A program made the translations under genes and the position numbers. This document shows, piece after piece, positions 3,028-5,467 of a stretch of 5,514 nt of DNA; position 1 is the first letter of the stretch; the number at the start of each line of letters is the position of its first letter. The stretch lies in contig CAMPIA010000096.1 in assembly GCA_946886175.1 (NCBI GenBank), positions 1-5,514 of the forward strand, given 5' to 3'. Under the pieces are notes generated by a model that did not search any database, was not told the origin of the DNA, and worked only from the letters and a program-made list of their open reading frames with translations. Source of the DNA: an uncultured Altererythrobacter sp. (GTDB lineage: Bacteria > Pseudomonadota > Alphaproteobacteria > Sphingomonadales > Sphingomonadaceae).

Positions 3028-3966
3028 ATGAAACGAATCCTGGCAGGGGCGCTCGCCGCGCTCGCCGCCTCGACGGCGGTCTCGGCCGAGGAGTTGCGGG
3101 TGGCGACCTTCAACACCGAGTTCCTCATTCGCGAGAAGGTCCACATGCGCGAGGGCGTGTCCGACGCCGACGCCGCGAGCTGGACGGCCGCGCGGCGGGA
3201 GCAGGCGTTCGAGGACGCCGTGGAGCGGGTGGCGCCGGTCGTCGCCGGCCTCGACGCCGACATCGTCGTCCTCACCGAGATCGGGCCGGCTGCCGACGTG
3301 AGCTCGCTCAATGCCGCGCTGCCGGCGCCCTATCCGCACGTCGCGGTCTGCGAATGCACCGACACCGCGACCCGCCAGCACGTGGCGATCCTCTCGCGGC
3401 TCCCGTTCGACAGCGTGACACCGGCGATCGCCGGACGCGAGCACTACTTCACCGAGCTCGACGATCCCGAGAGCGAGCGCGACACCGGGATCTCCAAGGG
3501 GCTGAGCGCGACGGTCTCGTTCTCGGGGGAGCGGATCGCGATCTACGGGATCCACCTGCTGAGCGAGCGCGGCGGCCACGAGGGCGATGCCCAGCGCATC
3601 GCCCAGGCTTCGATCGTGCGCCGCAATTACCTCGGCGATCTCGCGGCGGGCCGCCACGTGATCGTCGCCGGCGATCTCAACGAGAAGCGCGGCGATCCCA
3701 CCCTCTTGCGCATCCGCGGGCTCGACGACATCGGGCCCGACCTGATCCAGACCGGTGCGGTCGAGTTCTTCGAGCGCGGGGCGCTCGGCGAGCGCTGGAC
3801 TTACGCGTTCGAGGGCGAGCGCAACCAGATCGACCATGTCCTGCTCAGCGACAGTTTCCGCGAGGCGGTCAAGCGCGGCGGCATCGACAGCGCGGTCGTG
3901 CGGGTCAGCGATCCGGCCGTGTCGGATCACTCGCCGCTCGTGGTCACGATCGACTTCCGGGAGTAG
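3028..3966 (+). CDS. Exported endonuclease/exonuclease/phosphatase (EEP) family protein
   Basis: The protein has 312 residues. It starts at ATG 3028 behind a strong ribosome binding site (AAGGGGGGG, 3015-3023) and carries a signal peptide (MKRILAG, hydrophobic core, cleavage probably after Ala20 in VSA/EE). The mature part is a complete Mg-dependent EEP (DNase I-like) domain: Asn29 in TFNTEF, metal-binding Glu84 in VVLTEIG, His176 in IYGIHLL, Asp216 and Asn218 in GDLNEKRGD, and the catalytic Asp300-His301 pair in SDHSPL near the C terminus. The family contains nucleases, sphingomyelinases and inositol phosphatases, so the substrate (extracellular DNA, phospholipid or another phosphoester) cannot be fixed. 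Periplasmic or secreted location is inferred from the signal peptide. The gene stands alone, 257 bp from the divergent mucR, whose product may control it. Confidence 0.9.
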   Translation: MKRILAGALAALAASTAVSAEELRVATFNTEFLIREKVHMREGVSDADAASWTAARREQAFEDAVERVAPVVAGLDADIVVLTEIGPAADVSSLNAALPAPYPHVAVCECTDTATRQHVAILSRLPFDSVTPAIAGREHYFTELDDPESERDTGISKGLSATVSFSGERIAIYGIHLLSERGGHEGDAQRIAQASIVRRNYLGDLAAGRHVIVAGDLNEKRGDPTLLRIRGLDDIGPDLIQTGAVEFFERGALGERWTYAFEGERNQIDHVLLSDSFREAVKRGGIDSAVVRVSDPAVSDHSPLVVTIDFRE

Positions 3967-4074
3967 CGCCCGGGCGGCGGCGCCGCGCGCGATCGCGCCT
4001 TCGCTTCGCAGGGCCGCTGCCGATGGCGGTCGCGCCCGCGCCGTCGGGCTCGCGCCGGCGTGCGGCTCGCCGGC

Positions 4075-4167
4075 CTAGCGCTTGCGGCGAAGGGCCCACA
4101 CGAGCGAGGCGAGGCTCGTGACGAGCGTGGCGAGCGCGGTCAGCCACAACGGATCGGTGAGGAACAT
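4075..4167 (-). CDS. Putative 30-residue single-span membrane protein
   Basis: A small frame runs from ATG (4167-4165) to TAG (4077-4075). The product begins MFLTDPLWLTALATL and ends in the basic tail WALRRKR. Residues 7-25 form a hydrophobic span rich in Leu, Ala, Val and Thr, followed by four positive residues, as expected for an N-out, C-in small membrane protein. Support for coding: 28 of 30 sense codons end in G or C, and an AGGAG ribosome binding site lies 9 bases upstream (4181-4177). I do not recognise the family. Its size and charge pattern resemble small stress or type I toxin peptides as well as harmless regulatory membrane peptides. The ribosome binding site lies inside a perfect hairpin, described separately. 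The gene faces the end of the nuclease gene 108 bp away and lies downstream of the recombinase remnant in the same direction. Confidence 0.6.
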   Translation of the reverse strand: MFLTDPLWLTALATLVTSLASLVWALRRKR

Positions 4168-4169
4168 GC

Positions 4170-4197
4170 GAATCGACTCCTGCTTCGGAGTCGATTC
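4170..4197 (-). promoter_or_regulatory. Perfect 11-bp hairpin enclosing the ribosome binding site of the 30-residue gene
   Basis: GAATCGACTCC (4170-4180) and GGAGTCGATTC (4187-4197) are exact reverse complements around a 6-nt loop. On the minus-strand transcript the 3' arm contains GGAG, most of the AGGAG Shine-Dalgarno sequence, and the ATG follows 2 bases after the stem. Folding would hide the ribosome binding site from the 30S subunit. No T-run follows on either strand, so a Rho-independent terminator is unlikely. It could alternatively be a protein-binding palindrome in the DNA. Confidence 0.65.
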
Positions 4198-4201
4198 AGA
4201 T

Positions 4202-4214
4202 AACCATTATGGTT
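4202..4214. repeat. 13-bp AT-rich palindrome AACCAT-T-ATGGTT, possible operator/promoter of the small gene
   Basis: The two 6-base arms are perfect, with one central base. On the minus strand it contains CATAAT (4211-4206), a fair -10 box; transcription from it would start near 4201-4199, so that the leader would be little more than the hairpin at 4170-4197. The -35 match at the right distance is poor (T-rich only). It also contains the TAA stop of the recombinase remnant. The surrounding 40 bases are clearly more AT-rich than the rest of the window. The operator role is inferred from position. Confidence 0.4.
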
Positions 4215-4528
4215 CATGTAGGAAAACGAAAAAGTGCCATTGCGGTCGATGCTGGGGCGCATCGGCGCGCGCCGGAAACCCGAAGATCCTGCGCTGCAGG
4301 TCCCAGTCGAGCGGCAGGGGCCCGTGGGCGAGCCGGCTCATGGTCAGGCCGGGAGGCTGTGCGCCCGCGAAGATCGCCGCGGCGATGTCGGGCGCGAGAT
4401 AGTTGAGGCGGAGCAGGCGGCAGAAGCGCTCGGTCGAGCATTTGAACTCGCGTGCCATGAGCTTGAGGTCGAAGTCGTCCGTGCTGTCGACCGCGGCCTG
4501 GGCGCGCCGCGCCTTCGCGAAGCGTCTC
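4207..4528 (-). pseudogene. C-terminal remnant of a large serine recombinase (recombinase family protein)
   Basis: The frame that ends at TAA (4209-4207) encodes about 107 residues that look like the end of an alphaproteobacterial phage/ICE-type serine recombinase. The diagnostic stretch is LMAREFKCSTERFCRLLRL, followed by NYLAPDIAAAIFAGAQPPGL and then GPLPLDWDLQRRIFGFP. In complete proteins this follows the resolvase and recombinase domains and forms a helix-turn-helix-like region plus the conserved xAPDIxxAI...QPxGL tail. The resolvase domain with its catalytic serine, and the zinc-ribbon part, are missing: upstream the frame runs directly into the abiEii gene, and recognisable similarity fades near its stop codon at 4531. 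A short protein could be made from the ATG at 4458, but a decayed gene is more likely. The last 20 residues or so (after FGFP) look atypical. Confidence 0.7.
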
Positions 4529-5467
4529 CTACAGGCGGTCGGCATGCTCCGCGATCCGCTCGAGGATTGCCTCGAGGCTGGGCTGCCCGCGGTAATAGAG
4601 GGCGGCCGTTGAGGCATAGGCCCGCGCGAAGCGCTCACGTATCGCCGTGTCCGGCAAGCTGAAAGCCGGGTTTTCGGCAATTACCTTGTTGTCCGCGCTT
4701 GGGAAGCGCGCCGCCTTGTGGGCGACATAGGCCTCGGTGCCGATGAAGGCCCGGACGCCCTGATCTCCGAGGAGGCAGTAGACGTCATAGTAATGGCGAA
4801 GGAAGTTCTGGGGCATGCTGCCGTCATCGACGTGCCGCCGGAACTTCGTCGAGATCGTCTGGAGCTTCTCGACCAGTGTGTAGCCGGGCTCGTAGCAGGG
4901 GACGTCGGCCGCCCGATTGTCGGTCAGGTCGCCGAGACCGCTCTCTGCCGCCTTGTCATAGGCCCATGAACTGATCAGGCACGGCCGGTTGGGAGCCACC
5001 TGATCGAAGCCCGCTTCGAGGAGAATCCCTTCCTTCACGCCCTCGGGGAGGGGCGTGTGGGGAGCATAGCGCAGCCGGATTCCGGCGCTGCGCATACGTG
5101 GGTCATCGAACGCTTCGTCACGCTCGACCTCGGAGAAGCCTGCGATTTCTATCTTTCGCGGCAGGCCGTCATAGAAGGATCGGCGGGCCGCGATGTGCGC
5201 GGCCTTGTTCTGGTTCCTGCCGGTCGGCAGGCCCTCGACGTCCGGGTGGATCTGGATGTCGATGTCTTCGGAGAATCGGTGGATGAGCCCATGCCCTTTC
5301 GAGAGCGACGTCCCGCCCTTGAGCTCGAAGGTAAAGCCGAGCTGCTGCAGGCCCCACAGGCCGTGCATGATCCAGTAGTCCTTTTCGACCAGGCCCGGAT
5401 CGATCGCCTGTTCGCGCGCGACGACCGCGAGGAGATCCCCGAAATCCTCGTGATCGTGCAGTAGCAT
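4529..5467 (-). CDS. abiEii: AbiEii/AbiGii family nucleotidyltransferase toxin
   Basis: The protein has 312 residues, the normal length of the family. Near the N terminus is VEKDYWIMHGLWGL (27-40), the usual entry of this family. The nucleotidyltransferase signature follows: KGGTSLSKG (50-58), then HRFSEDIDIQ (63-72) with the metal-binding pair Asp68 and Asp70. Further conserved blocks are GILLEAGFDQ in the middle, YTLVEKLQTISTK, where the Lys probably contacts the nucleotide, and RHYYDVYCLL. In AbiE systems this enzyme is the growth-arresting toxin of a type IV toxin-antitoxin pair, uses nucleoside triphosphates (MenT relatives modify tRNA), and gives abortive phage infection. The ATG at 5467 lies 8 bp after the stop of the upstream gene, in the antitoxin position. 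I see no truncation or missing motif, so the toxin appears intact. Confidence 0.93.
   Translation of the reverse strand: MLLHDHEDFGDLLAVVAREQAIDPGLVEKDYWIMHGLWGLQQLGFTFELKGGTSLSKGHGLIHRFSEDIDIQIHPDVEGLPTGRNQNKAAHIAARRSFYDGLPRKIEIAGFSEVERDEAFDDPRMRSAGIRLRYAPHTPLPEGVKEGILLEAGFDQVAPNRPCLISSWAYDKAAESGLGDLTDNRAADVPCYEPGYTLVEKLQTISTKFRRHVDDGSMPQNFLRHYYDVYCLLGDQGVRAFIGTEAYVAHKAARFPSADNKVIAENPAFSLPDTAIRERFARAYASTAALYYRGQPSLEAILERIAEHADRL

Follow-up and report, generated by a model that had tools for sequence, protein, structure and literature searches.

A family of SidA-like small membrane proteins in sphingomonads and the promoter it shares with GTA genes

Introduction

Is a frame of 30 codons, lying beside the tail of a recombinase gene, a gene at all and, if so, what governs it and what may its product do? 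The question is raised by the window, that is, the whole stretch of 5,514 nucleotides from an uncultured Altererythrobacter sp. which was analysed here, and in which the frame is preceded by a perfect stem that takes in the ribosome site. The initial annotation of this DNA had described a single-span protein with a basic tail, whose defining control would be a hairpin hiding the ribosome-binding site.

Several tiny membrane peptides offer themselves for comparison. Among type I toxins, TisB, of 29 residues, and DinQ are SOS-linked peptides of the membrane whose leaders are structured. SidA, of 29 residues, is induced by SOS, sits in the inner membrane and inhibits division, interacting with FtsW, whose alleles F145L and A246T suppress it (PMC4211646); its gene is CCNA_02004 (PMC10769358), and the Caulobacter LexA box is given as GTTCN7GTTC (PMC12700426). 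In reported AlphaFold 3 models, SidA lies against transmembrane helix 7 of FtsW, although the confidence is not high (PMC13396833).

Layout of the window

The features that bear on the small gene are collected in Table 1. The neighbours named in the initial annotation, an AbiE system and a recombinase stub, were borne out by profile matches, and the last codons of the recombinase-tail frame overlap the promoter of the small gene. The AbiEi partner of the AbiEii gene was not found within the window, and would sit past its right end. Further frames to the left of the small gene correspond to HTH_17, a TraF-like S26 peptidase, a ROS/MUCR regulator and an endonuclease/exonuclease/phosphatase protein, the left part of the window also holding a luciferase-like fragment with a score just below the Pfam cut-off. 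At 842-2209 on the plus strand, HTH_17 and the TraF-like S26 signal peptidase are followed by an unassigned frame (1570-2209, without a match in the Pfam search), and this part is perhaps the remnant of a conjugative transfer region. No GTA gene adjoining the small gene was seen in the window, nor among the frames listed for the relative L001, where a serine-recombinase-like gene comes after the small gene. The endonuclease, used as a search anchor, retrieved no relative.

Table 1. Features of the window at and around the small gene
Feature	Coordinates	Strand	Evidence
30-codon single-span membrane-protein gene of the SidA-like family (DP..LTALATLVTSLASLVWALRRKR)	4075..4167	-	relatives, alignment, genome profiles, codon-position bias
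Perfect 11-bp stem with 6-nt loop and GGAG ribosome site in the 3' arm	4170..4197	-	folding, shuffles
Palindrome AACCATAATGGTT enclosing CATAAT; second element (ACC-N5-GGT) of the GTA-type promoter	4202..4214	-	leader and genome pattern counts
TTTCCTACA, first element of the promoter; TCCTACA belongs to the genome-search pattern	4217..4225	-	leader counts
Open frame with recombinase C-terminal tail, upstream neighbour, mobile scar	4207..4680	-	phrog_14161, residues 46-135, 1.8e-13
AbiEii nucleotidyltransferase toxin gene, neighbour outside the finding	4529..5467	-	PF08843, 1.2e-26

The small gene and its family

The product of the frame, MFLTDPLWLTALATLVTSLASLVWALRRKR, has one hydrophobic span (top 19-residue Kyte-Doolittle mean of 1.73, starting at residue 8) and a basic tail, just as had been described. 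In a large protein set, all 39 candidates were related to the 43-residue stop-to-stop query, with E-values from 5.8e-10 to 1.1e-5 and identities of 69-97%, and residues P6, L9, T10, A11, A13, R27 and R28 are invariant in the alignment of the relatives. In the homologue search that the initial annotation had proposed as a check, the frame is kept in relatives, and differences fall mainly at third codon positions (7, 2 and 15 at positions 1, 2 and 3 between the window and L008; 5, 0 and 9 between the window and L007). The small frame is a real gene for a tiny membrane protein. A tblastn search with the 30 residues against plasmid and phage records gave no match. Distant similarity at the DNA level was seen in 28 plasmid records, none of which covered 80% of the query, and led no further, and none of the six stretches matched by a protein search in viral contigs was confirmed.

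The family consists mostly of single-span proteins of 27-35 residues with the typical ending LVWAxRRK, and occurs in sphingomonads and Caulobacter. When named genomes were scanned, 21 stretches fitted the patterns and six loci were confirmed, in Croceibacterium, Altererythrobacter segetis, Caulobacter segnis and two Sphingomonas, one of them with two copies. Within the family of A. segetis, which we take to be the Sphingomonadaceae of GTDB, 37 of 298 genomes had profile matches, and within its order 19 of 246; a narrower profile matched two of 385 genomes of the class, C. segnis among them. For the genus of C. segnis, the broader profile A3, whose first row is the window protein, gave matches at E <= 0.01 in 29 of 75 genomes. 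Some genomes (G002, G290, G884, G034) carry two or three copies of the small gene. G002, the genome of A. segetis, holds a copy of the GTA type and, on two different contigs, two near-identical copies of the SOS-box type (L012, L016) whose upstream sequences hardly differ.

For the comparison of leaders, 42 loci were taken for extraction, seven of which were without the core by pattern (L055, L056, L066, L068, L077, L082 and L097). L094, which has an in-frame stop, was excluded from the leader counts; L164, L165 and L168 had no frame with the core by pattern, L172 and L173 were left out, and so were, from the leader set, four Caulobacter-genus matches without a locus. The start codons of L042, L046, L058 and L088 were reset by hand for these counts. 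The 71 leaders collapsed to 68 distinct ones, 45 from sphingomonads, including that of the window, and 23 from the genus Caulobacter.

The stem over the ribosome site

The perfect 11-bp stem announced before the ATG is indeed present, and its 3' arm, GGAGTCGATTC, stops 2 nt short of the start codon. As for the claim of an AGGAG site buried 2 bases before the ATG, it is the arm that ends 2 nt away: the Shine-Dalgarno core GGAG is paired inside the stem, but the A of AGGAG lies unpaired in the loop and GGAG stands 9 nt from the ATG. The 140-nt stretch folds with z = -3.75 against dinucleotide shuffles, and no other perfect stem of at least 11 bp (loop 3-8) occurs in the window. Dinucleotide shuffling of the whole window produced such a stem somewhere in 14 of 200 cases, so that a stem of this size is just mildly unusual; at this place, it was reached in none of 300 simple shuffles of the 35-nt leader.

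Whether hairpin and frame are conserved together was a check proposed in the initial annotation; the frame is conserved but the stem is not, as a perfect stem of at least 8 bp is present in just two of the 68 distinct family leaders (the window and L050), and one of at least 6 bp in 17 of them. Computed pairing of the ribosome site was also compared with that in shuffled leaders, for the 49 in which both an operator and a ribosome site could be identified, and was clearly higher in few of them (L087, L008 and L023; less so L016 and L012). The value for the window itself, 0.80 in a measure that counts the loop base too, was matched by 25 of 60 shuffles. The core GACTCC/GGAGTC is common to the window and L008, and the stem is lineage-specific. 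The Rfam search found no family at the site, giving two sub-threshold matches elsewhere, and a pattern search of viral contigs for the hairpin was likewise empty. The view of the hairpin as a conserved regulator was rejected, given that pairing in the 49 leaders is mostly not above that of shuffled ones and that stems of at least 6 bp are confined to 17 of 68 leaders; a hairpin hiding the ribosome-binding site is not supported as the defining control of this gene. A type I toxin-antitoxin system or an RNA thermometer is likewise unsupported, the stem not being conserved and the site being without an Rfam match.

In two metagenome relatives (P0001, P0003), the frame continues upstream through the leader and reads FSYTNRYGYVSRL ahead of the start. 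By back-translation, FSYTNRYGYVSRL is compatible with both the promoter and the CGACTCC arm, and P0011, P0026 and P0029 are likewise compatible with the GGTTATCT portion of the L007 leader, though neither amounts to proof. A second Caulobacter group (L050, L053) consists of 27-residue relatives, MTPEHITALASLVTATAALVWAVRRRK, without an SOS box and with a ribosome-site stem of their own (TCCTTCAAG..CTTGAAGGA in L050, and a related shorter stem in L053 by eye).

Promoter elements in the family leaders

It is the promoter, not the stem, that is the conserved trait of the family. With at most one mismatch, TTTCCTACA is found in 39 of the 45 distinct sphingomonad leaders, including that of the window. 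An exact SOS repeat (a GAAC- or GTTC-N7 direct repeat) is present in 27 of the 45 and, at seven of eight letters, in 34 (control, 4), and CCTA..ACC-N5-GGT in 12, again with the window included. The control, consisting of the 150 nt starting 20 nt past the stop codons of the same genes, gave 0/45 for each of the three elements in the exact counts. The exact SOS repeat and CCTA..ACC-N5-GGT were never found together. Nine further leaders, for which no controls were taken, showed the SOS repeat in four, CCTA..ACC-N5-GGT in two (G015 and the second copy of G034), TTTCCTACA in six and neither operator in three. Furthermore, the SOS repeat lies upstream of TTTCCTACA in L009, L031, L045, L170 and L171 and downstream of it in the other leaders with both, so that these are two separate elements. 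Among the 23 Caulobacter-genus leaders, 15 have the SOS repeat (control, 0) and none has TTTCCTACA, and ACC-N5-GGT alone gave no signal there (1/23; control, 6).

In the window, the leader has no LexA box; the promoter reads TTTCCTACATGAACCATAATGGTTA, and TCCTACA-N1-4-ACC-N5-GGTT stands at 4201-4225 on the minus strand, close before the start codon. The initial annotation had pointed to a CATAAT within a 13-bp palindrome as being -10-like; the palindrome AACCATAATGGTT, a perfect odd one enclosing CATAAT, was confirmed and forms part of the control region of the gene. A sigma-70-type scan of 3900-4700 found no promoter.

The promoter in GTA genes

The pattern TCCTACAN{1,4}ACCNNNNNGGTT, hereafter the GTA-type pattern, was searched across genomes. 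In the family of A. segetis, 163 of 298 genomes contain it, the reversed pattern giving 12 hits in 11 of the 298. In the class, four hits in three of 240 genomes were obtained, one of these genomes being a member of the first set, against about 20 for the reversed pattern, which means that the motif is at chance level outside the family. Thirteen genomes, picked since most carried the small gene, contained 21 sites in ten genomes, with none in the reversed control: eight sites precede the small gene, eight a protein of about 137 residues, three a candidate TerS protein and two other genes. The one 137-residue protein tested is a GTA_holin_3TM (PF11351, 2.3e-31), the others being aligned by our own profile; two of the three candidate TerS proteins were tested and matched phrog_4044 (1.4e-18 and 4.9e-20), and one of the two other proteins is a tail fibre (phrog_12296, 5.5e-17). 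In the same 13 genomes, CCTAC with the SOS repeat gave five sites in four genomes, four of them at the small gene, and the reversed control also gave five; the count, therefore, shows no enrichment, but the places do.

One site per genome was then classified for the first 30 genomes listed; two of these loci, L127 and L128, appear to be close relatives. Of the 30 sites, 24 stand before GTA genes for a holin, for lysin and holin or for the small terminase; in detail, 17 precede a holin, six a muramidase-like gene and then a holin, one TerS, three a spike-like gene, one a tail-fibre-like gene and two a membrane protein of about 90 residues, where the muramidase, spike and 90-residue labels come from reading the sequences by eye. 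The kinds of genes behind these sites identify the motif as the promoter of the sphingomonad GTA regulon, and this promoter is common to the small gene and the GTA genes. As none of the 30 sites precedes the small gene, it must be a minor part of the regulon. Two families recur under the GTA-type promoter: the 90-residue membrane protein, in two genomes (L145, L146), and a family of about 142-154 residues, spike-like by eye (L112, L132, L133, L151), whose member L112 had no Pfam or PHROGs match.

The exact GTA-type pattern stands before the small gene in G002, G001, G198, G143, G093, G135, G884 and G015, and a looser form in G067, G096 and G034. The small gene does not track GTA, since the holin is present in 27 of 37 small-gene genomes and in 216 of 298 genomes overall. 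Within the former, it was found in eight of ten genomes with a GTA-type small-gene promoter (G034 and G015 being without it) against 19 of 27 others, no difference to lean on.

Stems were also sought in 42 GTA leaders (the 43 without the small gene, minus one without a start codon by rule), and are perfect over at least 8 bp in three and over at least 6 bp in eight. In five of these eight (L151, L147, L142, L120 and partly L114), which belong to terminase, lysin and spike-like genes, the ribosome site lies wholly or in part in the 3' arm, the letters varying by locus; L120 has the same GACTCC/GGAGTC core as the window, and the 3' arm in L135 is without the ribosome site. Such stems are possibly a weak recurring habit.

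A candidate regulator

The DnaA box is TTATCCACA, and TTTCCTACA matches it at six of nine positions. GafA of Rhodobacter is described as joining a DnaA-like domain to a sigma-like domain (PMC6363796, PMC9638019), and gafA homologues are reported for 196 of 208 genomes, drawn from across those alphaproteobacterial orders that contain GTAs (PMC9765227). GafY and GafZ of Caulobacter correspond to the halves of GafA, GafY alone binding many operons, and over-production of GafY was noted to inhibit division (PMC9632790). The elements given for Caulobacter are the YBE, ACTATG, for GafY, and the ZBE, GCGCCCG-CTGGCGC, for GafZ (PMC11150451). Taking the spread of gafA and the likeness to the DnaA box together with these differing Caulobacter elements, GafA as the binder of the sphingomonad motif is plausible and unproven.

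Proposed function and alternative explanations

Upon the observed family, its conserved frame, its promoter elements and the sharing of these with GTA genes, a reading can be built to which we give a probability of about 0.5: the small gene would encode a division inhibitor of the SidA type, governed by the GTA programme and no longer by SOS. The product would be a one-helix inner-membrane peptide, its basic tail presumably in the cytoplasm, which would halt division for a time by binding FtsW, the septal cell-wall synthase. Most of the sphingomonad relatives examined and the main Caulobacter group carry a LexA-type SOS box; the window and a minority of relatives are without such a box and have the promoter TTTCCTACA-N2/3-AACC-N5-GGTTA of sphingomonad GTA genes. 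As this is the promoter of small-terminase, lysin, holin and tail-fibre genes, production of the peptide would be expected while the GTA programme runs, with a GafA-type activator as the probable link; the window's own genome would then hold a GTA, and the ribosome-site stem would damp leaky translation. A GTA-type promoter on a SidA-like gene suggests that cells may stop dividing while making GTA particles. We further propose, with slightly less confidence, that in several lineages a SidA-type FtsW inhibitor, SOS-controlled in most relatives, has swapped its LexA box for a GTA activator site beside a constant TTTCCTACA, the motif TTTCCTACA-N2/3-AACC-N5-GGTTA defining the sphingomonad GTA regulon as the site of GafA. 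Against the reading of a SidA-type inhibitor under GTA control count the failure of the small gene to track GTA presence across genomes, its absence behind the 30 classified sites, the lack of likeness between the motif and the GafY and GafZ elements of Caulobacter, and the fact that one-helix peptides can look alike through convergence.

The promoter would also suit a small holin or lysis helper, permeabilising the membrane together with the lysin and holin genes that have the same promoter. A weak sub-threshold likeness to Phage_holin_10 (E 0.0015 at best, with E <= 1 for 24 of 40 members) points the same way, but the window protein reaches just 17 of the 27 bits required by the curated cut-off of this family (PF23987), and over positions 30-51 of 52 only. 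Moreover, 31 of the 40 members give an unrelated weak match to Gram_pos_anchor, which indicates that a helix followed by arginines matches loosely. With SOS boxes in 27 of the 45 sphingomonad leaders and Caulobacter members that fit SidA, a holin seems doubtful. Those same SOS boxes, together with the length, the single hydrophobic helix and the ribosome-site stem of the window, could speak for a membrane toxin of the TisB/DinQ type, induced by SOS or stress, with a structured leader and perhaps an antisense RNA. Nevertheless, the leader shows neither an Rfam match nor a conserved structure, and the similarity in sequence points to the SOS-box Caulobacter group, so that we consider a toxin distinctly unlikely.

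The half-site TAACC resembles CtrA half-sites, and the palindrome ACC-N5-GGT might be the site of a general sphingomonad regulator, of stationary phase or CtrA-like, with GTA genes among its targets. CtrA does act in the control of the Rhodobacter GTA (PMC6363796), but the 30 classified sites precede six kinds of genes only, 24 of them for GTA packaging or lysis, and the site is an inverted, not a direct, repeat; a general regulator is, in our judgement, unlikely. As for a chance frame beside a mobile scar, with an incidental inverted repeat, the 14 shuffles in 200 that yield an 11-bp stem would allow for the repeat, but the idea is refuted by the family, with its 39 relatives, its codon-position bias and its conserved promoter, and deserves next to no credence.

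Significance

SidA-like peptides are widespread in sphingomonads and form a new branch there; most have SOS boxes, and some, including that of the window, a GTA-type promoter. The SidA family would thereby be extended beyond Caulobacter, an extension that was not found in print in a literature search that had most subscription journals outside its scope, and the same search found no report linking SidA-like peptides with GTA. The promoter supplies a signature by which the GTA regulon of sphingomonads can be sought in the sequence of any genome, and points to genes outside the GTA cluster which may belong to the regulon, a candidate division inhibitor among them. If the proposed reading is true, a division stop is built into sphingomonad GTA production, and one tiny gene has been swapped between the DNA-damage and GTA programmes. 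A SidA-type peptide under GTA control would also be a direct way to test, in another order, the link between GafY and division noted in Caulobacter (PMC9632790).

Comparison with known systems

The tiny membrane peptides TisB and DinQ and their structured leaders are like the small gene by description, but the site in the window has no Rfam match. GTA_holin_3TM (PF11351) has the same promoter, but its members are about 137 residues long, with three spans by name, and the Pfam search gave no match between it and the 30-residue protein. The GafA/GafYZ regulon resembles the present one in having small-terminase, lysis and tail-fibre genes under one promoter type, with a DnaA-like domain in GafA and GafY to set beside TTTCCTACA; the sphingomonad motif, however, does not resemble the GafY or GafZ elements as given for Caulobacter (PMC11150451). 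DidA, which in Caulobacter is controlled by DriD, is likewise a small one-span protein with a damage-linked division block under non-SOS control (PMC4211646), but has 71 residues. Control by DriD was rejected for the small gene, the DriD site ATACGAC-N7-GTCGTAT (PMC12340889) being absent, by eye, from the window leader.

The likeness to SidA extends to size (about 29-34 residues), the single helix, a C-terminal core (TALATLVWAFRRKP / TSLASLVWALRRKR) shared with the Caulobacter group described here, and an upstream SOS box, which 15 of the 23 leaders from the Caulobacter genus and 27 of the 45 from sphingomonads possess, the window differing by its GTA-type promoter and strong ribosome-site stem in place of an SOS box. 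The main Caulobacter group, of which L061 is an example (profile E 9.6e-8), has proteins such as MDKELLSQLPIILSAVAGVFTALATLVWAFRRKP, of 34 codons from the ATG, and an in-frame TTG in several would give 29. Upstream lies GAAC-N7-GAAC, often as GAACAAAAAGAGAAC, which is the LexA box read on the other strand. The core is shared between the profile led by the window protein and this SOS-box group, a relationship in sequence. That this group is SidA (CCNA_02004) is what we infer, and by sequence and regulation SidA is the nearest characterised relative of the small gene.
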